Assembly (NCBI RefSeq): GCF_029338555.1
Contig: NZ_CP119991.1
Span: 186,001-250,000, forward strand
Origin: Halobaculum marinum
Lineage (GTDB): Archaea; Halobacteriota; Halobacteria; Halobacteriales; Haloferacaceae
DNA length: 64,000 bases
Direction: 5' to 3'
The translations under genes were made by a program, and so were the position numbers. Below are positions 1-12,045 of this stretch, piece after piece (within the stretch, counting starts at the first letter, position 1; each line of letters opens with the position of its first letter). The notes under the pieces are model-generated. The model made no database searches. It worked only from the letters and a program-made list of their open reading frames with translations, and was not told the origin of the DNA.

Positions 1-2646
1 AGCGACTGTGGCGCCTGGGGGTACAAATCCTTGCCTTTCCCTCCCTACGGGAACGAAGAGATGCTATCTTTCTATAAGACACTCAAAGTCACTGTCGGGG
101 TCACAATCGACCATCTCGTTCTCGGGTCCGGGAAAGAAGAGGGCCGCCTCTACCTCAATGAACGGGCGTTCGATGGCGACATGACGAAGGACGACATTCC
201 GGACGCGGTAACGGAAGTTGTCGACGTGATGACAGACGAGTGGCCGGAGGAGTGGCCTGCGTACGTTGATGAGTACGAACCTACGATTCGAACGGATGCA
301 AACAGTGAGATCGAACCGTTCACCGCGGCAGACTTTCAAGGGGAGATTGAGAGCGTACTCGAACGTCTCTCACAGGATCCGCGCGCCGTCTACCGGGAAG
401 ACGATGCAGAGTTTCGATACGAGCTGACGCTGCGGAACGCCCAAGAGATGTATGCCCTCTATCAGCGGCGTGACTATCCGTTCCGCTTGATGGTCGCGGT
501 TCAGGGGTGGGATTCCGACTCCTACGCGAGGGCTGCAGAGGAAGTCCTCGATATCGGCTATGACTATCTTGGGATCGGCGGCGTCGCAGGAAGCCCGATT
601 CACGATGTTCGAGAGATCGTGAAGGCCGTCGGGAAGACGGTGAAAGCGTTTGAACGTGATCATAACACACGTGTGGATTCTCACGTCTTCGGTTTCGCAA
701 AGACCGAAGGTTTCGAGACAATCGGACGGTCGGGAATGTCGAGTTTCGATAGTGCGAGTATGCTTCGGTCGGCGTGGACCGGAGGAGGGAACTACCGACT
801 TGATCACGACGAACGCTATGACGCCATTCGTGTCCGCTATCCGTCGAGCAGTGCTAATATTGCGGAGTCTGTCGAGGCATCACTTCGTAGCCGCGAGGTG
901 CTTGTTGCCCTACGGGCGTACGACGCAGGTGGCTCGATTCGTGATGCCCTCAACGACTGGCATTCATCCTCAGTAGATATTCTCCCGGCGGTCGAACACT
1001 ATCTCCGTGAACACCGTCACGATAACCAGTTTGATGAGCGTCTCTTAGAGGTCGTCGAGGCGGCATTCCGAGAGGACTTCGAATATGGGCGTGAACTACA
1101 GGCGAGTTTCGGCGGCGACCTCCGCCGGAAGCTCGCTAAGCTCCTTCGTGAAGACGGCCCAGAGGATCCGGTTCCGTTCTCTCAATACAGTGATCTACTG
1201 AAGACAGCTGATGAGATATTCGATCAATTCCCACATGCGCCAGTTCTCCTCAACGACTCAGACATAGTGACTGACTACGATCGCGTTTGGGCGATCGTCA
1301 GAGAGTACGCGACATGGGTCGGGGACGACGACCTCTTAGAAGAGTATCAAGAGACACTCCGTGAGCGCCCTTGGGATCGCTGTGACTGTCCACTCTGTCG
1401 TGAGGAAAGTATTGACATCTGTATCTTCCGTGGAAACGATCGAAACCGACGTCGGGGGTTCCACAACACGCGGAGGTTCTACGATGAGTTTGAGGAGGAC
1501 CTACCGAAGATTCTCGTTGCGACGAAGGGTACAGCTAAACTTAGCGGCTTTGAAACTGTCGAAAACTATCTCCGCGATGAGCATCCTGAATTCTGGGAGC
1601 AGACACACGACCTCCCTATTGCTGAACTTGGTATGTTGGATGCAAGTGGTGTGAACGAGTGGTGGGATGACACTCCTTCCATGGCGTCGTTTGACCCCGA
1701 TCGAATGGCCGCAAATATTGGTGAACAGGCCGCACGCTACCAGTATCTTTTCTTACAGGATGATGACGGGTCGATCGACGATGCGGTTATTGAAGCAGCA
1801 CGTGAGAAAGAATGTGCTGTAGAGACATACAGTGATCCAGCCGATCTTCGTGAGCAGGTGTTGGAGACTTGTGGCGAAAACTATGTTGCTGGCGAGGATT
1901 TCCTCCCACATCCACCAGAACTTGATGTGGACAACCTCGACATTTTGGTCATTGACCAGTGCTCTGGATCGAAGGATGTCCCTGATAATGCGCCAGTCTT
2001 TGACGCCGACGAGACGCTTCAATTTTCCCGAGAAGATCTCCTCGCTCGTGATAACGTCCCTGGGATCGCCGCACGCGACCTATACACTGGTCGCCAGCAA
2101 GCCAATGTCAGAGATGCCGTTCGCCGACTCCGATCGAACGGCCATGATGTTGATCGGTACTTCATCAGCGCCGGATTTGGCTTAGTCGGCGAGAACGACT
2201 ACCTCCCCCCGTACGAAGTGACGTTCAGTTCGATGAACGTGAGCGAGATCCGTGACCGGTCCGGGAAACTCTATATTCAAGAGGATCTACAGAAGGTTCT
2301 CGACGAGAGTGACTACGACGTTGTCTTCTTTACACTCAGCAAAGACTACTACACCAGTATTGACGTTGACAAAATGGTTCAACGAGTCAAAGCGGATCGA
2401 ATTGGCGTCGTGTTCAATCGTGAACTAGTCGAAGACCAGTTTGACAATATCGAGTCCATCCCCGCACGAACTGAGGATGCGAAGCGACACGGTACGATTG
2501 TCATCGGTCTCAAAGGTCTGTATATGAAGAACTTCGCCAAACAGGTTGATAATCTTGAGACGATTCGCCCGGAGACTATCGAGGAACTCTGCCGATATGT
2601 CGATGATGGACCAAACCAGACCACACTACCTCAAGAAAAGTCTTAG
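1..2646 (+). CDS. TGT/DpdA-like transglycosylase fused to a DUF6884/YaaA-like domain (5' end outside window)
   Basis: The frame is open from base 1, so the real start lies left of the window; 881 residues are visible. The N-terminal half resembles the tRNA-guanine transglycosylase barrel. DCGAWGY (visible residues 2-8) matches the DSGGF substrate Asp region and IDHLV lies near 37. GYDYLGIGG (near 187) matches the glycine-rich guanine-binding loop, and SSFDSAS fits the nucleophile Asp site. CDCPLC at nt 1381-1398, followed by a His (RRGFHN), is the TGT zinc site. The part from nt 1940 (CSGSK, LYTG, ISAGFGLV, PPYEVTF) looks like DUF6884, related to YaaA. There is no PUA domain, unlike archaeosine TGT. 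Base composition is less GC-rich than typical core genes here. It may be a DpdA relative acting on DNA, which is inference; the tRNA enzyme role is less likely because of the fusion. Confidence 0.75.
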   Translation, partial: SDCGAWGYKSLPFPPYGNEEMLSFYKTLKVTVGVTIDHLVLGSGKEEGRLYLNERAFDGDMTKDDIPDAVTEVVDVMTDEWPEEWPAYVDEYEPTIRTDANSEIEPFTAADFQGEIESVLERLSQDPRAVYREDDAEFRYELTLRNAQEMYALYQRRDYPFRLMVAVQGWDSDSYARAAEEVLDIGYDYLGIGGVAGSPIHDVREIVKAVGKTVKAFERDHNTRVDSHVFGFAKTEGFETIGRSGMSSFDSASMLRSAWTGGGNYRLDHDERYDAIRVRYPSSSANIAESVEASLRSREVLVALRAYDAGGSIRDALNDWHSSSVDILPAVEHYLREHRHDNQFDERLLEVVEAAFREDFEYGRELQASFGGDLRRKLAKLLREDGPEDPVPFSQYSDLLKTADEIFDQFPHAPVLLNDSDIVTDYDRVWAIVREYATWVGDDDLLEEYQETLRERPWDRCDCPLCREESIDICIFRGNDRNRRRGFHNTRRFYDEFEEDLPKILVATKGTAKLSGFETVENYLRDEHPEFWEQTHDLPIAELGMLDASGVNEWWDDTPSMASFDPDRMAANIGEQAARYQYLFLQDDDGSIDDAVIEAAREKECAVETYSDPADLREQVLETCGENYVAGEDFLPHPPELDVDNLDILVIDQCSGSKDVPDNAPVFDADETLQFSREDLLARDNVPGIAARDLYTGRQQANVRDAVRRLRSNGHDVDRYFISAGFGLVGENDYLPPYEVTFSSMNVSEIRDRSGKLYIQEDLQKVLDESDYDVVFFTLSKDYYTSIDVDKMVQRVKADRIGVVFNRELVEDQFDNIESIPARTEDAKRHGTIVIGLKGLYMKNFAKQVDNLETIRPETIEELCRYVDDGPNQTTLPQEKS

Positions 2647-2723
2647 AACTGGAACAAACGCGGGAACGCGCTCTCGTGGAATCGTTGCAAGGGTATACGA
2701 GTCAATCCGTGTTCCGTGGGAGT

Positions 2724-3692
2724 TCATAGCTGAGCAGGGATGAAATCGCGCCGTCGGCGCATCCCCTGGCGCTTCGATGCTTGGTCGTAGTGCGCTCCCA
2801 GAATCTTCTTGCAGACGTCGCCGCGGTCGCTGACGACCTAGCGCAGGTCCCCGCGTCGCGGTGGGTCGTGATCAACCCCGCGCGGAGCTGGTGCGGCGAG
2901 TACTCCACCCCGAACAGGTCCACCAGCTCCTCTGCCCAAATTTCGCCCGGGTAGTCGATCATGTGCTTCAACAGTCGATGCGGCGTGTCCTGACACTCCA
3001 TATTGTAGCGCCGGATCGACTCCATCGCTAGTTCGCGGACGTCCGCAATCAGCTCCAGCGTCCCGTCCGTAATCCCCGAGAGGTCGCCCGCGTCGACGCG
3101 CGACTGGAGGATGTCGACGAGTTCTGACTGACTGTAGCGCTTGAGTTCGATGTGCAGGCCGGTCCGGAAGCGCGACGACGTCTCGGCGTCGAGGCGCGTC
3201 ACGAACCGCTCGTGCTCGTGGACGACGAACACGGGCGCCACGCCGTTCGCCTCGAAGAGGACGTGTGGGAGGTGTTCGTCCTCGATGTGTTCCGCCTCGT
3301 CGAGCGTGAGGACGATGGGCGAGTCGGCGTCCTCCAACTGCGCGAGGTACGACGACGCGGCGTCGGCCTTCGGCGATGAACGCGTCTTGAGGCCGGCGTC
3401 GACCAGCGCCTCTTCCAGGATCGCAGCATGCGAGCGCGTCCGGAGGCAGTCGACGTGCGCGGTCTTCACCACCGTCTCCCGGCGGAGTTCGTGGACCGCG
3501 AACCGCGAGACAACCGTATCGCCCGCGCCAGTCGGCCTCGAGATACAGATCGGGTACGCCGGACGGTCCGAGCGGAGCGGGTCGAGGGCGTTCGCGAACT
3601 GCCCGAGCGCGGCGTCGCGGTGGGGCATCCGCTCGGGTGACGCGGTCGAGTTCCAGAACCCGCGGGACTGTGGCGCTCACTCCGTCTGCCAT
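2724..3692 (-). pseudogene. Decayed Orc1/Cdc6-like replication initiator
   Basis: An AAA+ Orc1/Cdc6-like sequence spread over two frames. The start frame reads MADGVSATVPRVLEL from 3692. Near 3635 the homology moves to another frame (SPERMPHRDAAL). It returns to the first frame near 2850, where a TAG at 2838-2840 interrupts it before VVSDRGDVCKKILG and a final TGA at 2724. The Walker A region reads PTGAGDT and lacks the catalytic Lys; Walker B is LTLDEAEH. The core from about 3628 to 2870 is well preserved, so decay may be fairly recent. Its ATG overlaps the end of the upstream decayed gene (3677-4032), which suggests a former two-gene operon. It was probably a plasmid-type initiator and is now non-functional. 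Confidence 0.7.
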
Positions 3693-4032
3693 TGGTGTCG
3701 GGGGTCGATCCAGTCCCAGTCATCGAGGTCGACGTCGGCGAAGTACTCCTCGCGTTCGGTTTACCGGACCTCCTCGGGAACATCGCGAGCGAGATCGTCG
3801 ACGCCGTCGGCGTCGAACCGCTAGGCGACGGTGTGGTTCAAGAAGTAGTCCCATACAGTGCGACCTCGCACTCATTCACGAGTCCGAGGAGTTCGAAGCG
3901 TCTCCCGTCGGCATCGGTCAGGTGGCGAGTCAGCGTGATCGCCTCGCTCGAGGAGCGGTGTTCGGCGATTGTCCACGCGAGTTCTCCCTTCGTGTGGGTG
4001 TAGAGGCTGTGTTTCGGGCTCGACTTTGACAT
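3677..4032 (-). pseudogene. Decayed small haloarchaeal gene upstream of the orc1 relic
   Basis: ATG at 4032 opens MSKSSPKHSLYTHTKGEL and the frame runs to a TGA near 3838. The coding pattern then continues in a shifted frame (DYFLNHTVA, stop, RFDADGVDDLARDVPEEVR, stop, TEREEYFADVDLDDWDWIDP) to TGA at 3677-3679. The acidic, aromatic C-terminal part is typical haloarchaeal coding sequence. One frameshift plus two in-frame stops are therefore seen. The last codons overlap the ATG of the decayed orc1/cdc6 gene. The family is not recognised. Confidence 0.6.
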
Positions 4033-4326
4033 CAAGTCGATACCAACCCGGCTCGGTATTAGAAGCGAGCCAGGGGCGGAGTGTAAGTAGAGGTACCCGG
4101 ATGCGGGCCGACGAGCCGCCGGAAGTGAACCCACTCTCTGAGATGAAGAGCCGATCAGTATACTTTCACGACAATTCGGTCTGGTAACGGCTTGTGCTCG
4201 AGAAGGAAGACTCAGCTGTTGGCCTTCGTCCATCGACTCCCCGGGGTTTGGGGGTTACCGACGGTCGATGGAAATCTGGGTGCGAAGTACTGAAGTCCGT
4301 TCCCTGAGGCACCGAAATTGGGTATG

Positions 4327-4356
4327 GTTTCAGACGAACCCTTGTGGGGTTGAAAC
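4327..4356 (+). CRISPR. Solitary haloarchaeal CRISPR-type repeat
   Basis: A 30-bp unit starting GTTTCAGACGAACCC and ending GGGGTTGAAAC. From memory it matches the repeat family of haloarchaeal type I-B arrays (GTTTCAGACGAAC...TTGAAGC). The last two bases differ from the second copy at 4645. It is separated from that copy by 288 bp that contain a small gene rather than spacers. No cas genes are in the window. Confidence 0.7.
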
Positions 4357-4465
4357 GACTGCGTCGGAGCGAGGAACTCTTCTACCAACTCGTAGCACTT
4401 CTCGAGTTCTCCGTGCTTGTTGTACTCCTCCACCGCCCTTACCGCACGTCGCCTCTCCTCGGACG

Positions 4466-4471
4466 CTTATA
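4466..4471 (+). promoter_or_regulatory. TATA-like element for the 48-aa gene
   Basis: CTTATA lies 27-32 nt before the ATG at 4498, the spacing expected for a leaderless archaeal transcript. No Shine-Dalgarno sequence is seen before this ATG. Confidence 0.45.
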
Positions 4472-4497
4472 CCAATACACCCCAATGGTAAATCGTA

Positions 4498-4644
4498 ATG
4501 TCCGAAACAATCGACGTTGACCGTGACGCTGTTGAGACGCTGTACCGCGAAGTTGTCGCCCAGACTGAGAACATCGAGGAGGAGTGGCGTAACCCTGAGG
4601 TCGATGCCGCCCTCGACATAATTGGTGAGGCCCTGTACGAGTAA
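4498..4644 (+). CDS. 48-aa acidic protein between CRISPR-type repeats
   Basis: ATG at 4498 to TAA at 4642-4644, giving a 48-residue acidic protein that begins MSETIDVDRDAVETLYRE and is predicted to be mostly helical. It has a TATA-like box at the right distance. The next CRISPR-type repeat starts at 4645, the base directly after its stop codon. The family is not recognised. The helical, very acidic character would fit a small antitoxin-like or anti-CRISPR-like protein, but nothing in the sequence proves this; it may be an ordinary small haloarchaeal protein trapped in a decayed array. Confidence 0.6.
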   Translation: MSETIDVDRDAVETLYREVVAQTENIEEEWRNPEVDAALDIIGEALYE

Positions 4645-4737
4645 GTTTCAGACGATTCCTTGTGGGGTTGAAGCGGGAAGCGAACCGACTACCGCCAGCA
4701 AATCGGGAGCTTCAGACGAACACTTGTAAGACGAAGC
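4645..4737 (+). CRISPR. CRISPR remnant: repeat, one 34-bp spacer, degenerate terminal repeat
   Basis: The repeat at 4645-4674 differs from the 4327 copy at two bases inside the unit (ATTCC for ACCCC side) and at the end (GAAGC). Then comes a 34-bp spacer at 4675-4708, and a degenerate repeat at 4709-4737 that keeps TTCAGACGAAC and GAAGC. The repeat-to-repeat period of 64 bp is normal for haloarchaeal arrays. A degenerate last repeat is common at the distal end of an array, so this looks like the tail of a collapsed array. Confidence 0.7.
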
Positions 4738-4819
4738 ATCGGATCGGTCTTCTCCTGCTTCTGTAGCTATGATCTTATTTGACTACCTGGGGTCGCGCGC
4801 CAATGTAACGGGGATCCGC

Positions 4820-4864
4820 GATGTATGCACACCCCCGGCGCGCGGGGGTCCTCGTGCATACATC
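4820..4864. repeat. Nested inverted repeat (hairpin)
   Basis: Perfect 11-bp arms GATGTATGCAC (4820-4830) and GTGCATACATC (4854-4864). The loop contains a second GC-rich inverted repeat (CCCCC...GGGGG). It lies in a gene-free stretch (4738-5012) between the CRISPR remnant and the DUF7386-like gene. It may be a terminator, an operator or a recombination/replication hairpin. Confidence 0.6.
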
Positions 4865-4983
4865 CGAACGGTCCCTCGCGTTGAGTCCGCAGTTTCGAGT
4901 GGCCGCGCGGGTAGGGGTATATAATGCGCGAACCATCCAGTAACTCCAGATCGACGCGATTCGGACTCCGCTCATACATACAG

Positions 4984-4990
4984 ATATATA
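4984..4990 (+). promoter_or_regulatory. TATA-like box for the 5013 gene
   Basis: ATATATA centred about 26 nt before the ATG at 5013, consistent with a leaderless transcript. A purine-rich GGGGGAGGT at 4992-5000 is 13 nt from the ATG. A second TATA-like string (TATATAATG) lies near 4918-4926. Confidence 0.5.
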
Positions 4991-5012
4991 CGGGGGAGGT
5001 CAGCCGCCGAAC

Positions 5013-5276
5013 ATGGGCACCGGACGAACGACCCTACGCCTCTCGGACGAACGGAAACGACTGCTGGATCAAGCCGCCGGGATCGTCGCGGCTGGCAACG
5101 ACGATGACCCGCCGCGGTCCGACGTGATCGACGCCGCGCTGATGCACCTCGTCCAGTCGGCGCGGAACGTCGAGGACGCGAGGGAGGACTACGATCCTCG
5201 GACGATCCAAGATATCGCGAATACCGACGTTCCCGGCTTTTACTACCGGACAAGTATCGAAAGCCGGTGGAGATAA
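5013..5276 (+). CDS. Ribbon-helix-helix-like small protein (DUF7386-like)
   Basis: 87 residues. The N-terminus GRTTLRLSDERKRLLDQAA followed by PPRSDVIDAALMHLV has the strand-helix-helix pattern of RHH-type DNA-binding proteins. It resembles the haloarchaeal DUF7386 family by memory. Such proteins are common on haloarchaeal plasmids and proviruses as small regulators. The C-terminal 30 residues are acidic and unassigned. It is transcribed alone, with its own TATA-like box, ahead of a lower-GC gene. DNA target unknown. Confidence 0.7.
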   Translation: MGTGRTTLRLSDERKRLLDQAAGIVAAGNDDDPPRSDVIDAALMHLVQSARNVEDAREDYDPRTIQDIANTDVPGFYYRTSIESRWR

Positions 5277-5331
5277 GCTGTATCCGAAACCCGATAATTA
5301 TTTACAACACAATTTGACACACAGTTCACAA

Positions 5332-6108
5332 ATGGCGACACTAAATGCATATTCGAATGACCCGGGGTACTATATTAGAGCCTGGACCTCAGATCTCAGG
5401 AATTTTAATTACAAAATTCGGTCCGAAGGCTGGGATATCATCGACAGTGATCCAAACCTCACAGATGGCGTTCAGATATCTTGGAAATATATTAACACTT
5501 TGAAAGCTCTTGGAGTGGTGTATACGGAAGAGTCTGGAGTGATAAGCCCCGATGACGAGAAGTTCACTCCTGACCCAGACCAAACCTCAGAGTCTCTGAG
5601 CAGGGAGGAGGCCATGGAGTTTCTGGATGCAATCCGTTCAACGAGAAATCTTTCCACCCAAGAATTGGAACAGATCTCTTCCGTACTTGGGATTGAGACT
5701 CTCGATGACAATCACGAAGAACTTGAATCTAACATATCAAGCCAAATCAAAGAAGAGTTGTCGAACAATAGGAAGTTGAGCGGTGAGGTGTGTGACAGCG
5801 TAGTTGCATTCACACCCGAATGGAAGACAGAATCCGACGATCTGTATCACCGTCTGTTCATTATTCTAGTAGTCAAGGATAACTCTGGGTCTGTGGTCAC
5901 ATCCACGACTCACACGGTTAAATTCCATGACGGAACACTTGCTGATTGGTCCGTAATAATCGAGTCTGGATGTTGGAAAGCCAGAGGCGAGGCTTACCAA
6001 CACGTTGGATCTCTTTTACCAATTGTTGTAAACAACATAGAGGAGCGTTTTCCGACTATGACGGATACTTGGTTAGATCCAGAGATTAACCTCACTGTTG
6101 AGGGGTGA
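5332..6108 (+). CDS. Uncharacterised 258-aa protein of lower GC
   Basis: ATG at 5332 is chosen; an in-frame TTG at 5314 would add six residues. The N-terminal third has aromatic and helical stretches; a segment near residues 85-120 (SREEAMEFLDAIRS, STQELEQISSVLGIE) looks helical and linker-like. The C-terminal half (FTPEWKTESDDLYHRLFIILVVKD) is beta-rich. There is no signal peptide or membrane segment. The codon choice (AT-ending codons) differs from the neighbours, which suggests recent transfer. An AT-rich TATA-like stretch (ATAATTATTTA) lies near 5295. Function not recognised. Confidence 0.6.
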   Translation: MATLNAYSNDPGYYIRAWTSDLRNFNYKIRSEGWDIIDSDPNLTDGVQISWKYINTLKALGVVYTEESGVISPDDEKFTPDPDQTSESLSREEAMEFLDAIRSTRNLSTQELEQISSVLGIETLDDNHEELESNISSQIKEELSNNRKLSGEVCDSVVAFTPEWKTESDDLYHRLFIILVVKDNSGSVVTSTTHTVKFHDGTLADWSVIIESGCWKARGEAYQHVGSLLPIVVNNIEERFPTMTDTWLDPEINLTVEG

Positions 6109-6114
6109 AACTCT

Positions 6115-6396
6115 CTATTCGATACGGGGAGATCTACTCCCTGAATAATCGGCTTCCAGTAGCAATTGCCCGGCAACCCGACGAATAGAACTACACTCGT
6201 GCACTTCCGGAACGTGTCCGTCCTCGGGAACGCGCACGAGGTACGTCTGTTCCCCCAGCCGCTCGGTGAACGCCGTGGTGTTCTCGGGAAGTTCCCCCTC
6301 GTCGTCGAGGATCCCGTCCCGTTCCAGAAAGTCCGACCGCTCCAGCATGATCCCGACGGAGTCGATCCCGATCTTCCGTAGCTGTCTGTGTGGCAT
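6115..6396 (-). CDS. Small AbrB-like/DUF8053-like protein (tentative)
   Basis: 93 residues, converging on the 5332 gene with only 6 bp between stops. RKIGIDSVGIMLERSDFLE followed by a short acidic turn resembles the swapped-hairpin AbrB-like pattern (RKIG-x-S-x-G-x-L-x-x-x-D-x-L) seen in small haloarchaeal proteins. Those are usually antitoxin-like or regulatory. The similarity is by eye only. The C-terminus is basic-acidic and unassigned. Confidence 0.55.
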   Translation of the reverse strand: MPHRQLRKIGIDSVGIMLERSDFLERDGILDDEGELPENTTAFTERLGEQTYLVRVPEDGHVPEVHECSSIRRVAGQLLLEADYSGSRSPRIE

Positions 6397-6540
6397 ATCT
6401 GGCGGCTACCCGCGGGGTGTCATAAAGCCCCGCCCGAGGGGAGGGCACCCCCACGGGGACCCCGCTGTTCAAGTCAGAGTATTAGTGAGGGGGAGGGCTC
6501 GGCCACCGGATCGGCCCCGGTTGGCCGAACGAAAAACAAC

Positions 6541-6962
6541 TCTCTCACAATTGCATACCAGGAATTCGACGCGGAGGATATCAGGGCACTCGTGCTCGCG
6601 ATCTCCACCGCGACAGGAATGGTCGGAATCGCTCAAGTATCGGCATTCGGCGTCTCGATGTCGGACGGTTCACACTCGCCGGCATCGAGACGAACATCGC
6701 GTGGCTCCTCACAGTCGGTACGTTCGTCACGGTGGTTGTCACGAACGACAACACGGAACTGCTCTCGACGGACGGGATGGACCGGATGCGCGACGAGATG
6801 GACGACGTGTACGCCTTCACCGTCGCGGGCTCGGCGGTACTTCTCGTCGCGTGGGTACTGTTCCCCGGGGTCTCCTCCTCCTTCCAGAGCGAGGACCTGT
6901 GGGGTGTGCTCTACATCGCGGGCGTCGCGGCGTCACAGGTCGCGTTGGGGTGGATGTACTGA
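6541..6962 (+). pseudogene. Frameshifted multi-pass membrane gene
   Basis: Coding sense is split between frames. The first part (ALVLAISTATGMVGIAQV, near 6585-6660) is a hydrophobic segment. The match then continues in the -1 frame near 6660-6670 (RFTLAGIETNIAWLLTVGTF) through a loop (NDNTELLSTDGMDRMRDEM) and two more hydrophobic segments to TGA at 6960-6962. One missing base near 6660 would join them into a protein with about four membrane segments. The start codon is not clear. It is followed directly by a DUF378-like gene with the same kind of lesion. Confidence 0.5.
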
Positions 6963-7194
6963 TGATCGACCTCCGCAACCCCTACGACAAGTCAGAGTCG
7001 ACGCTCGAGGTCAGGTTGTGGTTCGTCGTCGCGCTCGGGCGCTCAATTGGGGACTCATGGCTGCCGTCGACGTGAACCTCGTCACGGGGCTCCTCGGCTC
7101 GAGCGCAGACCTGACGTACCTTGCGGTGGGCGCGGCGGGCGGGCTGAACCTCCTCGAACTGTTCGGCATCGACGTGCTCGGAGGTGACGTATGA
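6962..7194 (+). pseudogene. Frameshifted DUF378-like membrane protein
   Basis: ATG at 6962 overlaps the previous stop. The first frame gives MIDLRNPYDKSESTLEVRLW then WFVVALG. Near 7040 the match moves to the -1 frame: ALNWGLMAAVDVNLVTGLLG and a second hydrophobic helix (YLAVGAAGGLNLLELFGI), ending at TGA 7192-7194. The ALNWGL motif and two-helix layout are those of DUF378/YuzA-type small membrane proteins. One missing base near 7040 explains the break. A separate 45-residue product could still start at ATG 7070. Confidence 0.55.
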
Positions 7195-7553
7195 GGCGCC
7201 GGAACGCGACAGCCGTGGTCATGGTCTCGTTCGCGCTCGCCGCGACGCTGGTCGGTGCGGTCGGCGGCGGCGCGGCGGCGGACGTGGAGCTCACAAATGA
7301 GACGGTTGGCGTCGACGTCGAGTCCGGTTGCGCTCCCGTTCTGGACTCGGAACGTCGAGTCACACGAAAGGCATCGGTGTGCGACGCCGTCCTCGTCACC
7401 GAACACCCGCGCAAACCGGCGTGCCACGTGCCAAGCACAGAATTGGCACTCCCGGTCGACAGCTCCAACTGGGGTGAATTTCCGGTTCACGCCGACCACC
7501 TCCGGCTACGCGCGCCGCTGCACGGCGTGGACCTACGTGTGGTGAGCGTATGA
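7191..7553 (+). CDS. Small exported protein, possibly frameshifted
   Basis: 120 residues; its ATG overlaps the DUF378-like stop (ATGA). The N-terminus MRRRNATAVVMVSFALAATL is a Sec-like signal peptide, with a likely cleavage after GGGAAA. The start of the mature part (VELTNETVGVDVESG) looks normal. After about residue 95 another frame (GVNFRFTPTTSGYARRCTAW) looks more protein-like, so a further frameshift is possible. It belongs to a three-gene string (6541-7553) of membrane and exported proteins, which may be a decayed virus-like or surface module. Confidence 0.4.
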   Translation: MRRRNATAVVMVSFALAATLVGAVGGGAAADVELTNETVGVDVESGCAPVLDSERRVTRKASVCDAVLVTEHPRKPACHVPSTELALPVDSSNWGEFPVHADHLRLRAPLHGVDLRVVSV

Positions 7554-7780
7554 GTTGACGCAAACCTACCCCTATCGGCATTAGACTTAGGTGCGTAAAT
7601 TGGGTTGCTGGGGAGCCATTCGCTCCAATTTCGTCCGGACGGGAACCGTCCAGACGGTGGATGGCCAACTGGTTTACATTCTATATCATTTGTCGTACTT
7701 AGTGGCGATATTTTGTTTAATCGTCTATTTCCTATCGAGCTATTAGATAAGTATGAGTACAGCCTAGCCAAGCAGGAGGT

Positions 7781-8815
7781 ATGCTATACAGACGACGAAC
7801 CCTCGATCTCTCCAGGGGGGCACTAGAGACGCCAGTTCTCTTCCCCGTGAGAAACATCGGGAAACGGTCAAGCGATAACACGCCCGAATACGTCGGTACT
7901 ATACCCGAATTTTCAGTGGCGATGATCAACACCCGGTCAATTCGGAACCGCGAACCAATGTGGAATCGTCTCACAGATGGAGTTCCTCTCCGGAAGGAGA
8001 TGGATGTCCCAGAAGACACGATCGTATTCGCGGATAGCGGTGGATTTGATTTTTCCAGCGGAGATGTCGACACCACTCCAGCACAAACCCTCGACACGCA
8101 ACGGCAACTTGACGCTGACATCTACGGAACCGTGGACCTCCCCCTCTCCAGAGAGAATCGGGACGCAGAGAATGACCGCCGTGTTGAACAGAGCACGAAG
8201 TACGCCCTTGAGGCGAGTGATTTACACGATGGAGACAGTCTCCTCATCGCGAGTGTTCACGGGTATGACCCGCAGACAGTTCGAAACAACATCCGCTATC
8301 TGGAGAAGAATGGCCACTTCGATGGCTATGCCCTTGGGAGCATGGTCCCGATCCGAACTGACTACAAAAAAGTATCTAAACTGATACTTGCTGCTCGTAC
8401 GGCGACTGACAAACATCTCCACGTTTATGGCCTTGGTGGTCTTGTCTATCAACCACTTCTTTTGTATCTTGGCGTCGACAGCTTCGACTCCTCTGCATTC
8501 ATCAGAAGTGCGGGAAATAGGAATTATCTCGTTCCTGGATTTGGTGGAGAAGCGCTTAGGAACGTTGAATCGATGGAATACCTTCCTTGCCCGTGTCCGG
8601 TCTGTGGACAGCGGTGTCTAGATGATATTCGCGAGGATCGCACCGCACTCACTCAGCATAATCTTTGGGCCCTCGCAACTGAGCTTCGACGGTTCCGCTA
8701 TGTCGCTGAGTCTGATCGTGACATCGAAGAATATCTTGATCTACGCTTCCAAGGGAATCCAGTCACACAACGCGCTTACGAGACCGCGAAGCAGCAAGTC
8801 CGGAGGCTCTCATGA
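7781..8815 (+). CDS. TGT/DpdA-like transglycosylase (344 aa), first gene of a three-gene operon
   Basis: Likely a base-exchange enzyme of the tRNA-guanine transglycosylase superfamily. Visible motifs: DSGGFD at 85-90 (substrate Asp loop), VDLPLS at 118-123, ALGSMVP near 184, GVDSFDSS at 231-238 (nucleophile Asp region), and a zinc site C270, C272, C275, H293 (PCPCPVC...QHNLW). It is shorter than archaeosine TGT and lacks the PUA and C-terminal domains, as expected for DpdA-type paralogues that act on DNA. The ATG follows GGAGGT with no spacer; no better start is visible because a TAG sits just upstream. Its stop overlaps the next ATG (ATGA). Action on DNA rather than tRNA is inference from length and gene context. 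Confidence 0.75.
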   Translation: MLYRRRTLDLSRGALETPVLFPVRNIGKRSSDNTPEYVGTIPEFSVAMINTRSIRNREPMWNRLTDGVPLRKEMDVPEDTIVFADSGGFDFSSGDVDTTPAQTLDTQRQLDADIYGTVDLPLSRENRDAENDRRVEQSTKYALEASDLHDGDSLLIASVHGYDPQTVRNNIRYLEKNGHFDGYALGSMVPIRTDYKKVSKLILAARTATDKHLHVYGLGGLVYQPLLLYLGVDSFDSSAFIRSAGNRNYLVPGFGGEALRNVESMEYLPCPCPVCGQRCLDDIREDRTALTQHNLWALATELRRFRYVAESDRDIEEYLDLRFQGNPVTQRAYETAKQQVRRLS

Positions 8816-9711
8816 GCGATGAACGTGCGACCGTCCGCCCTGTCTCACTCAGCCGACTCGTTGAGGTTACACACTCCTGTGGAGATACAGAAAAAACGAC
8901 AGCGGAGATCGAGGGTGCTTTGGACGTGACCTACCGTCGGGCACGAGAGACAGTCCTCGAGGCTACTCGAATTAATTTGCTCTCTGAGGACGACGCTGAC
9001 GCCGATTCAACTTATACAGCGACTGATGTCGGTAGCAAATTCTTGAACGCGATCCTCGATGAGAACTGGATTCAAGCGAGTCAGATACTTGAAATGCACA
9101 GCCCACACTACGGTTCGTTTATTCAGACCGTTGAGGAGGTTGAGCACGGTGATCTGACCACTGTCCTCGAACATCTTGAGGCGGAGGAGGAGTTCACCCC
9201 GTACTCATTCAACCAAACAAGTGTAGAGGTACTTGGCGATTGGGCAGAGCGACTGGGTGCAGTCCAGCGTAACGCATTCACCGGCAGTTACTACCCTGCT
9301 GCACAGACGCCGATCCCGGACAATTTCCATTATATTCTTTTAGACATTTATGATGACCTCGAACAGACTGCTGGTGTCGACCTCCGGCAACGCTACCTCT
9401 CTATCCCGCGCCTCCGCGAGGCGACATGCGAACGTCTGGGTGCTACACGTGAGGCGTTCAACGAAGCACTCCTAATTCTCTGCCAGCAGAATGTCGGAAA
9501 GCTTGAACTTTCCGGTGCTCCAATGGATACCGGAGCGAAGGACGCCACACTTGGCATTAAGCAGATTGAGCTTGCGGGCGACGACAACTTAGTCTCAACA
9601 TCTCAGTCCAGCCAACAAATTATGAGTGGTGTCGTACAATTCGGAAAACAGTACTACTACCTGGCAGTTCACGACCGCAACATCACATTCACTCAGGAGA
9701 ACTCCCCATGA
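8812..9711 (+). CDS. Winged-helix-like partner of the TGT-like operon
   Basis: 299 residues, starting inside the stop of the TGT-like gene. The first 75 residues look like a winged helix (SLSRLVEVTHSCGDTEKT, then a putative recognition helix YRRARETVLEATRINLL). Residues 90-200 form an all-helical middle part; a second winged-helix-like segment (LREATCERLGATREAFNEAL) lies near 195-220. The rest is beta-rich. No enzyme motif is seen. It may recognise DNA for the transglycosylase or ATPase. It is reminiscent in size and position of the DpdG/DpdH pair of bacterial dpd islands, but this could not be verified. Confidence 0.6.
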   Translation: MSDERATVRPVSLSRLVEVTHSCGDTEKTTAEIEGALDVTYRRARETVLEATRINLLSEDDADADSTYTATDVGSKFLNAILDENWIQASQILEMHSPHYGSFIQTVEEVEHGDLTTVLEHLEAEEEFTPYSFNQTSVEVLGDWAERLGAVQRNAFTGSYYPAAQTPIPDNFHYILLDIYDDLEQTAGVDLRQRYLSIPRLREATCERLGATREAFNEALLILCQQNVGKLELSGAPMDTGAKDATLGIKQIELAGDDNLVSTSQSSQQIMSGVVQFGKQYYYLAVHDRNITFTQENSP

Positions 9712-10865
9712 ACGATACATTCACCATCACCGACGAGCAGCAGGATTACTCACAGTACGACCTCGATGCCAACCCCTTCCCCTACAGCCCCGTACCCGCG
9801 GAAGATCCAGAGATCTACTGCGGCCAACCGCATGTGACAGAAAAGATCAGCTCTACTGTTTCATCTGTCCTCTCAACGGGGAAATCAAAACACCTCGTGG
9901 TTACTGGAAAATACGGAAACGGAAAGTCTCACACGCTCAAGTACACGCGATCACTGCTACGTGACCGCGACGATGTCGTCGTCGGGTATGTTGCTCAACC
10001 CGGTGAAGGATTTCTCGACATCTATCACGAGTTTATCTACGACCTCGGGTTCAGTCGTGTGCAGGAGATCGCCTACGAGTATCTTGCTGCTGTCACCTGT
10101 GATATCACCGACGAAAACCCAACCGGAGCAAACGAAATGGAGTCACTCCTCGACGATGGCGAGATCCTTCTCTCGGAAATTGTCCCTGAGACCATCCGTC
10201 GATTAAGTGATGTGACCAAGTTCGCAGACTTCGCTCGCGCAATCGTCCATATGGTCTATGAAGATACAAACTTGTACGCGTGGCAGTGGCTTACTGCGGA
10301 AGGAATCCGCTACGAACAGCGGAAAGAGATGGAGATACACAGCGCCCTTGACGATGACACCATGGGGGTCCGTGCGTTCACTGCTATGAAGAATATACTC
10401 TTGGATCTCAGTTATACAGGTGTGTTTGTCTTCGTCGACGAGTTTGAAAGTATTGCTCGACTCTCCCCGAAGAACGAGCAGGCGACATTGAACAGCATCC
10501 GTCACCTGATGGATCAAAACAGCAACGGACTCTGTATGCTATTTGGATGTGCGCCGGAAGTCTGGCAGGACGTCATGAGCGAGTATCATGCCTTCAGCGA
10601 GCGTATTGGCCAAGAAGTGGCACTCCGTCCACTTACTACTGAGAATCTTACCGAACTTGTTGAGGACTATCTCAGCCGAGAGCGGACAAGTGCTGTTCCT
10701 GATCCTGCCGTTCGGCCGTTCACAGAAAATAGCTTGGAGTTAATCCTACAGCGCTCTCAAGGGAATATCCGCCAAGTTCTCTCTGTCTGTAGCCGTATGC
10801 TGGATAATGCAGCAAGCGAGAGTCAAGCGGAGATAACAGCGGATTTCACACAGGAGCATATCTAA
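9708..10865 (+). CDS. AAA+/Orc1-like ATPase of the TGT-like operon
   Basis: 385 residues; ATG overlaps the preceding stop. The N-terminus has the NPFPYSPVPAEDPEIYCG pattern found in Orc1-like and DUF2791-like ATPases. Walker A is GKYGNGKS at 67-74. Walker B is VFVFVDEFES near 242-252. A sensor-like FGCAPEVW follows, and the C-terminal lid region includes SQGNIRQVLSVCSRML. The length and layout fit a clamp-loader/Orc-type DNA-dependent ATPase. In context it probably loads or times the transglycosylase on DNA, or acts as the switch of a defence system; both are inference. The operon ends here; only 56 bp separate it from the convergent homing-endonuclease gene. Confidence 0.75.
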   Translation: MNDTFTITDEQQDYSQYDLDANPFPYSPVPAEDPEIYCGQPHVTEKISSTVSSVLSTGKSKHLVVTGKYGNGKSHTLKYTRSLLRDRDDVVVGYVAQPGEGFLDIYHEFIYDLGFSRVQEIAYEYLAAVTCDITDENPTGANEMESLLDDGEILLSEIVPETIRRLSDVTKFADFARAIVHMVYEDTNLYAWQWLTAEGIRYEQRKEMEIHSALDDDTMGVRAFTAMKNILLDLSYTGVFVFVDEFESIARLSPKNEQATLNSIRHLMDQNSNGLCMLFGCAPEVWQDVMSEYHAFSERIGQEVALRPLTTENLTELVEDYLSRERTSAVPDPAVRPFTENSLELILQRSQGNIRQVLSVCSRMLDNAASESQAEITADFTQEHI

Positions 10866-10921: not shown

Positions 10922-11917
10922 TCACACAGCCTCTACGCACAACCCTTCGAGCACGTACGCATCTCCCCTATCCAGCGAGATGTCGTACGTATCCCTCACA
11001 GGCCGTTCTGCCACACCGACCACCTCCGCAGACCCGTTGACCATGATCCCCGCGTACGAGCGGATCTTCCGCGACACAACAGGCCGAATCGCACTCAACA
11101 CACGGAGCCGACTATTAGCCCCACGAACGCGGACGCCCTTCTGCTCGACCACGTACTCGAACCCAAGGCGACCCAACAGCAACTGCAACGCCTTCCGTTG
11201 TTCGGGCTTCGTCTGCGTGAACCGGACAGTGTGGCCGTCGAAGGCGCCGTCAGTGTCGAACATCCCTGCGAGCCACCCCCGACAGTAGTCGAGATCGTCG
11301 ACCTGCGTCGGATCGATCGGAAGCAGTCCATCGAGAAGATCCACCTCCTTCCAGATCGTCGTCCGGATCTCGTGGAGGCTGTTGAACTCCCGCCCCTTCC
11401 GTTGCAGCCCGTACTCGTCGCGGGCGAACGCGTCGACGCGTTCGATGATCTCCTCGTCTTGACAGCGCAAGGTGGCGTTCTTCGTCGTCTTCGTTTTCAC
11501 GACACTCCCGTCGCCTGCGAACGCGCCGTGGACGTATCCGTCGCGGTACGCAACCGAATCAGGATCCGGCGTCGGCGTGAGGACGGTCTTGACGCGTTGG
11601 CCCGACCGAAAGCGACAGGCGTCACGGAAGTCGTGGGTGTACGGCAACACGCGCGCGTCCGCCGCGACCGACACGGTCACCTCGTCGGTCTGGAGTTCGA
11701 CTGTCGGCCGGCGCACGTGGGCGACGTCGGTCACTTGTGCCGTCTGGAGTCGACGTTGTCTCTGCCCGTTCTCAGCGGTAACGATCGCGAGTGTCGCGAG
11801 TTCGTCACCCGCCGAGACGGTGGAGATGGGTACCCACCCGAGGTCTGCAGTGAGCACGCGCTGCGGTGTTGGTGGATCGTGTGATGCAACTGGCGAGAGC
11901 GATTGCTGGTGGTGCAT
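10922..11917 (-). CDS. Freestanding intein-like LAGLIDADG homing endonuclease
   Basis: 331 residues from ATG 11917; an in-frame GTG at 11995 would add 26. The first 110 residues resemble a Hint/intein N-terminal module (VLTADLGWVPISTVSAGDEL, then VSVAADARVLPYTHDF). Two LAGLIDADG-type motifs follow: YVHGAFAGDGS and GWLAGMFDTDGAF. The end (TYDISLDRGDAYVLEGLCVE) matches the intein C-terminal block. However there is no N-terminal Cys/Ser before the Hint block, and the usual His-Asn pair is replaced by Glu-Ala before Val-stop. It is not inserted in any host gene. This looks like an intein that lost its exteins and splicing residues but kept the nuclease. Confidence 0.75.
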   Translation of the reverse strand: MHHQQSLSPVASHDPPTPQRVLTADLGWVPISTVSAGDELATLAIVTAENGQRQRRLQTAQVTDVAHVRRPTVELQTDEVTVSVAADARVLPYTHDFRDACRFRSGQRVKTVLTPTPDPDSVAYRDGYVHGAFAGDGSVVKTKTTKNATLRCQDEEIIERVDAFARDEYGLQRKGREFNSLHEIRTTIWKEVDLLDGLLPIDPTQVDDLDYCRGWLAGMFDTDGAFDGHTVRFTQTKPEQRKALQLLLGRLGFEYVVEQKGVRVRGANSRLRVLSAIRPVVSRKIRSYAGIMVNGSAEVVGVAERPVRDTYDISLDRGDAYVLEGLCVEAV

Positions 11918-12045
11918 GTTGTTGTTGTCGTCGGTGGAGGGCAGGGCAGTCAGTAGTCGATGCGCCGCGTGCGCCTCAGATAGCTGAGAACGCACGCATC
12001 AAGGGAGCACAAATGCCAGCGTCCGTTCGGCTGCGGAACTCACGG

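Follow-up and report, generated by a model that had tools for sequence, protein, structure and literature searches.

A transglycosylase, winged-helix and AAA+ ATPase operon accompanying DpdA in haloarchaeal islands: a probable DpdB-less variant of Dpd-type DNA modification

The triad and the DpdA island

A 64,000-nucleotide stretch of Halobaculum marinum DNA (hereafter the window; C3:186001-250000 of a 327-kb contig) contains three consecutive genes for a short member of the tRNA-guanine transglycosylase (TGT) family, here named TGTx, a winged-helix protein and a BrxC/BrxD-family AAA+ ATPase, which are together referred to as the triad (Table 1). The initial annotation of this DNA described three genes overlapping by 4 bp each, and the open reading frames (ORFs), their coordinates and their strand bear this out, both junctions being ATGA overlaps. 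The operon is not a chance arrangement, because it is kept in dozens of genomes. An island that combines it with DpdA and preQ0 synthesis genes has as its very probable function the replacement of guanine in DNA by a 7-deazaguanine, and these neighbours support the nucleic-acid base-exchange system that was initially proposed.

The window's left edge cuts through this island, dpdA starting 260 bp to its left and the preQ0 genes lying beyond it. The DpdA assignment follows from matches to NF041059 (265.5 bits, cut-off 200) and to the PADLOC DpdA profile (237 bits), and an alignment with Salmonella DpdA (7UI4, E 3.5e-39) includes the DCGA motif, the catalytic Asp and the Zn2+-binding Cys residues. 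The C-terminal domain matches Pfam DUF6884 exactly at the cut-off and PADLOC DpdC at 29.7 bits. Adjacent preQ0 genes are identified by QueC (188 bits, cut-off 150) and FolE (167.5 bits, cut-off 162); for the island QueD and QueE, the family matches stay under the equivalog cut-offs. The archaeosine pathway of haloarchaea had been suggested as the source of preQ0, but host synthesis need not supply the substrate, because the island carries preQ0 genes of its own.

The three triad proteins

TGTx scores 91.4 bits against the Pfam TGT family (PF01702, cut-off 26.3), which places it in the TGT superfamily. Residues D85, D119 and D236 and the Zn2+ ligands C270, C272, C275 and H293 are invariant across 17 orthologues, and these positions align with the catalytic and Zn2+ residues of the archaeosine TGT (arcTGT) 1IQ8. 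The closest solved structures are arcTGT 1J2B and 1IQ8, yet TGTx spans only residues 10-353 of the 576-residue 1J2B (Z 24), the C-terminal/PUA part being absent, as the initial annotation had recognized along with the catalytic and Zn2+ motifs. Judged by its conserved residues, TGTx is apparently an intact transglycosylase; its AlphaFold2 model is weak (predicted local distance difference test, pLDDT, 62; shallow alignment).

The further suggestion that this gene is DpdA-like did not hold. TGTx reaches 29.3 bits against NF041059 (cut-off 200), carries DSGG in place of DCGA and falls outside the DpdA clade; DpdA proper is encoded by a gene of its own, the next conserved one. A best hidden Markov model (HMM) match to a tRNA-acting TGT had been regarded as speaking against a DNA role, and literally this is the case, the best model being TIGR00432 (TgtA) at 142 bits. 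This score lies far under the 350-bit cut-off, so that TGTx is not classed as arcTGT/TgtA, and its partners are DNA-modification genes. In the phylogenetic tree, halophilic and non-halophilic archaeal sequences form one TGTx clade (support 100/99), separate from arcTGT (99/99), DpdA (89/98) and a cyanobacterial type (100/99). Its sister is another haloarchaeal TGT family, with weak support (91/79). No relatives of TGTx were found in viral contigs, phage records giving only weak STSV1/STSV2-type matches.

The second protein is modeled by AlphaFold2 (pLDDT 82) as a tandem winged helix, apparently of three units, in agreement with its initial description. Foldseek matches include FokI (2fok, E 1e-3, prob 1.00) and several other tandem winged-helix proteins, and comparison of the model with MarR-type domains gives a VIA Z of about 11. 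Pfam and PADLOC scans returned no Pfam family and no BrxA or DUF4007 HMM match. The ATPase matches PF10923 (BrxC_BrxD, an ORC/Cdc6-type family) at 58.2 bits against a cut-off of 22.2, and its Walker A (GKYGNGKS) and Walker B (FVDE) motifs are intact and conserved in 19 sequences. PADLOC scores it at 43 bits for BrxD and 32 bits for SngB, and its 44.3 bits against the BrxD equivalog NF033438 fall under the cut-off of 350, placing it outside that equivalog. The ATPase, initially labelled "Orc-like", is BrxD-like and not a replication Orc1/Cdc6, even though BrxD has been classed as an ORC/Cdc6 AAA+ protein (PMC12839542).

Conservation of the triad with DpdA

Across 170 genomes of the family, TGTx has 18 orthologues (64-86% identity) with a patchy spread. 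The same 19 of these genomes contain DpdA, TGTx, the winged-helix protein and the ATPase, and one fragmentary genome also has the winged-helix protein and the ATPase. At the level of the order (392 genomes), the ATPase is present in 54, DpdA in 52 and both in 50 (Fisher p 7e-56, uncorrected for ancestry). Apparent exceptions to co-occurrence include a genome that keeps 51 residues of a decayed TGTx (G194), two in which the sequence stops at contig edges (G435, G361) and two with ATPase fragments (G294, G316).

About 35 haloarchaeal loci emerged from a scan of named genomes; the triad is kept in nearly all of them, in most cases adjoining DpdA and preQ0 genes. In most relatives the triad lies on the same strand about 100-150 bp behind dpdA, near queC-folE-queE-queD, and one archaeal contig (L125 = L209) runs TGTx, winged-helix gene, ATPase gene, dpdA, folE, queD, queE, queC in a single direction. 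Four non-halophilic archaea of the phylum also hold the triad and DpdA (302-333 bits) in the same region. The triad is an almost obligatory part of the haloarchaeal island. Median identities are 81% for TGTx, 68% for DpdA and 65% for the winged-helix protein. TGTx exceeds DpdA in 29 of 30 loci, as expected for a core enzyme, and TGTx and the ATPase are the best conserved of the four proteins compared. YhhQ-like (VUT) genes for preQ0 transporters, recognized by visual inspection of the sequences, stand beside the triad in several loci.

A Csa3-like CARF-type regulator gene (L046 13876-14553 and relatives) adjoins the x283/ATP1171 helicase module of several islands, and a Halospeciosus flavus plasmid (L102, L124) carries the island twice, several genes having apparent frame breaks in both copies.

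Local setting in Halobaculum marinum

Table 1. Features of the triad operon and the adjoining island (window coordinates unless prefixed C3).
Feature	Coordinates	Strand	Basis or content
TGTx (344 aa short transglycosylase)	7781..8815	+	catalytic domain and Zn site, no PUA
Tandem winged-helix DNA-binding protein (299 aa)	8812..9711	+	AlphaFold2, Foldseek; apparently three winged helices
BrxC/BrxD-family AAA+ ATPase (385 aa)	9708..10865	+	PF10923, PADLOC, Walker A/B
Triad leader	7725..7780	+	TATA-like TAGATAAGTA, GGAGG preceding ATG
Spacer from dpdA to triad, ~5.1 kb	2647..7780	.	AAA ATPase ORF and unrelated small ORFs
AAA ATPase ORF in spacer	2702-3628	-	ORF reading
dpdA (968 aa), DUF6884/DpdC-like C-terminal domain	1..2646; C3:185740-188646	+	NF041059, PADLOC
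queC, folE, queE, queD	C3:182652-185185	-	just upstream of dpdA

This genome differs from the close relatives inspected in that about 5.1 kb of other DNA, instead of about 100-150 bp, parts dpdA from the triad, an insertion that obscures their linkage here. A search for direct repeats of at least 10 bp flanking this spacer found none. The triad leader resembles that of part of 24 relatives, a likeness that amounts to resemblance only. A TATA-like box and a similar leader also precede TGTx in loci L114-L118, and the leader of Halorubrum-type loci contains GAGCT-TATCG-CAGCTC, a possible operator. Immediately after the triad, at 10922-11995 on the minus strand, lies a free-standing LAGLIDADG homing-endonuclease-like ORF with an intein-like N-terminal sequence. 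The DNA to the left of the preQ0 genes encodes a UvrD/RecB-like pair, a DUF1998-type helicase and a P-loop protein. A DpdJ-like helicase spread over two ORFs, which matches part of the PADLOC DpdJ profile at 202 bits, lies there as well, together with a PD-(D/E)XK-like protein. The UvrD/RecB-like gene (C3:178036-181127; L005 6036-9127) appears as two ORFs 12 bp apart, and L101 and L103 also have such halves as separate ORFs.

DpdB and second transglycosylases

In described Dpd systems DpdB is the ATPase partner of DpdA, although some clusters reportedly do not require it (PMC12839542). The DpdB model (NF041060) gave no match in 20 triad-bearing genomes, and in four distant archaea none above the cut-off, one of them having a 24-bit match elsewhere in the genome. 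Among DpdA islands on bacterial plasmids, ten have DpdB without a second TGT, none has both, two have neither, and a second TGT without DpdB is found in three clear cases and one divergent one (Fisher p 0.02 for the clear cases and 0.008 with the divergent one, uncorrected for shared ancestry). In the clear cases (Picosynechococcus, Nostoc NIES-3756 and Paenibacillus sp. 37) the short second TGT stands by DEAD helicases or a KAP-type NTPase; the divergent case is Deinococcus taeanensis, in which the DpdA-like protein is itself divergent. Cyanobacterial DpdAs with 57-66% identity to one another's reference are found with either solution. A single origin of all second TGTs is not supported, and because TGTx, the cyanobacterial type and the Paenibacillus and Deinococcus proteins do not group in the tree, a second TGT was probably acquired on several occasions.

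In cyanobacterial and Deinococcus loci (L182 12789-18450, L181 3832-9403, L190 12986-15873) a short TGT lies by one or two DEAD helicases, with DpdA nearby or not. In another haloarchaeal TGT family, the gene behind the short TGT encodes a GHKL ATPase (L192 12121-25068 on a Haladaptatus sp. YSMS36 plasmid, L127, L128, L201); in L192 it is surrounded by one or two long TGTs and AAA, DEAD helicase, PLD and DUF6884 genes, and no DpdA was seen there. This family is possibly a further DNA base-exchange system.

Proposed function and alternatives

The reading that we favour, and consider reasonably probable, is that the island encodes a form of Dpd-type DNA modification that does without DpdB and uses two transglycosylases, the triad assisting the insertion of preQ0 into DNA. 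FolE, QueD, QueE and QueC of the island would make preQ0, DpdA would exchange guanine for it in DNA, and the DUF6884/DpdC-like domain of DpdA would probably convert it to the 7-amido form (dADG). The triad would take over the job of DpdB: the winged-helix protein may grip the DNA, the ATPase may load or remodel it to let guanines flip out, and TGTx would act together with DpdA, in all likelihood either as its partner in a heterodimer or as the enzyme for the other strand. The DpdJ-like and other helicase and nuclease neighbours, which vary by locus, would restrict unmodified DNA. The gene set, its co-occurrence, the intact active-site residues and the lack of DpdB are observed directly. We infer DNA as the substrate from DpdA and the preQ0 genes, and ATP-driven base access, the pairing of TGTx with DpdA and the division of labour are likewise predictions. 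A bolder proposal, offered tentatively, is that two different transglycosylases, one per strand or one catalytic and one positioning, form a pair driven by a BREX-type AAA+ motor, and that DpdA as a general rule depends on the presence of DpdB or else of a second TGT accompanied by an NTPase, an arrangement that would have evolved several times in archaea and bacteria.

Several observations weigh against these proposals. TGTx is closer to arcTGT, a tRNA enzyme, than to DpdA, which leaves room for an RNA target. One genome, G329, has DpdA and no triad within the 20 kb examined, an unexplained exception. The bacterial sample is small, most of its DpdB cases are related alphaproteobacteria, and its second TGTs belong to different clades, so that the replacement of DpdB rests on convergence.

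The triad might instead be the sensing or restriction arm of the island, its winged-helix protein and ATPase scanning DNA in the manner of BREX for guanines that lack the modification, and TGTx serving as an effector, by base exchange or as a glycosylase, that tests or excises guanine at non-self sites. Both BrxD and SngB are ATPases of defence systems, DpdJ and other helicases lie nearby, and restriction glycosylases are known (PMC10273834). This is nevertheless unlikely: restriction genes near the islands change from one locus to the next, whereas the triad accompanies DpdA almost without exception, as expected for modification, the strong conservation of TGTx and the ATPase argues against it, and it leaves the absence of DpdB unexplained. 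Quite unlikely, too, is a separate second modification made by TGTx independently of DpdA, in another sequence context or with another 7-deazaguanine such as G+. TGTx and DpdA both keep full catalytic residues, and the triad has a leader of its own and, in this genome, lies 5 kb from dpdA, but its co-occurrence with DpdA is near-perfect and no extra tailoring enzyme was seen conserved with it. That TGTx is simply a tRNA-acting archaeosine enzyme that has lost its PUA part would suit its TgtA match and its closest folds; it is very improbable, given that the genome already has a normal arcTGT gene with an adjoining further TGT-family match (both on C1) and that TGTx forms a separate, patchily distributed clade, lacks the tRNA-binding C-terminal part and accompanies DpdA and helicases.

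Relation to known systems

About 30% of the guanine in the DNA of virus HVTV-1 is replaced by dPreQ1; the virus has no DpdA, and Haloarcula vallismortis has been named as the probable origin of the DpdA that acts on it (PMC6884629). Haloarcula vallismortis (AOLQ01000002, locus L097) holds the whole module, a connection that is suggestive only, and the genes of the module are concrete candidates for the enzymes behind this viral modification. Haloferax gibbonsii ATCC 33959 has the module too. If the favoured DpdB-less reading is true, programmed 7-deazaguanine DNA modification extends to archaeal host defence islands, DpdB is replaceable and its replacement identified, and BREX-type ATPases are tied to base exchange. 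Two solutions, DpdB and a second TGT, could then be compared, making the role of DpdB testable.

No description of a haloarchaeal two-TGT dpd island was found in open-access texts, an earlier mention elsewhere being possible, and the initial impression that the gene set is not a described dpd cluster was correct. With archaeosine TgtA (1IQ8), TGTx shares the fold, the catalytic Asp residues and the Zn2+ site; it differs in lacking the C-terminal/PUA part, in its separate clade and in its DNA-modification neighbours. The ATPase shares the small ORC/Cdc6-type AAA+ class (PF10923) with BrxD of BREX type 2 and SngB of Shango, whose partner is the helicase BrxHI/SngC, whereas here the partners are TGTx and the winged-helix protein. 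In composition the triad resembles BREX-Related Capture (BRC), which also combines a TGT, an ATPase of ORC/Cdc6 type and a tripartite DNA-binding protein made of winged helices (PMC12839542). BRC, however, has PglZ, DUF6079, STAND, DUF4007 and HerA, and the island has DpdA and preQ0 genes; scans of the island neighbours revealed no PglZ, BrxC/DUF6079, HerA, STAND or DUF4007 among the genes covered. With the Dpd system (dpdA-K) of Salmonella Montevideo and other bacteria, the island shares DpdA, preQ0 genes, a plasmid or island setting and, less certainly, a DpdC/DUF6884-like domain and a DpdJ-like helicase; it differs in lacking DpdB and in having a second transglycosylase, a triple winged helix, a BrxD-like ATPase and other restriction genes. 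The triad-DpdA layout matches none of the described systems found and is probably a variant of Dpd-type modification.
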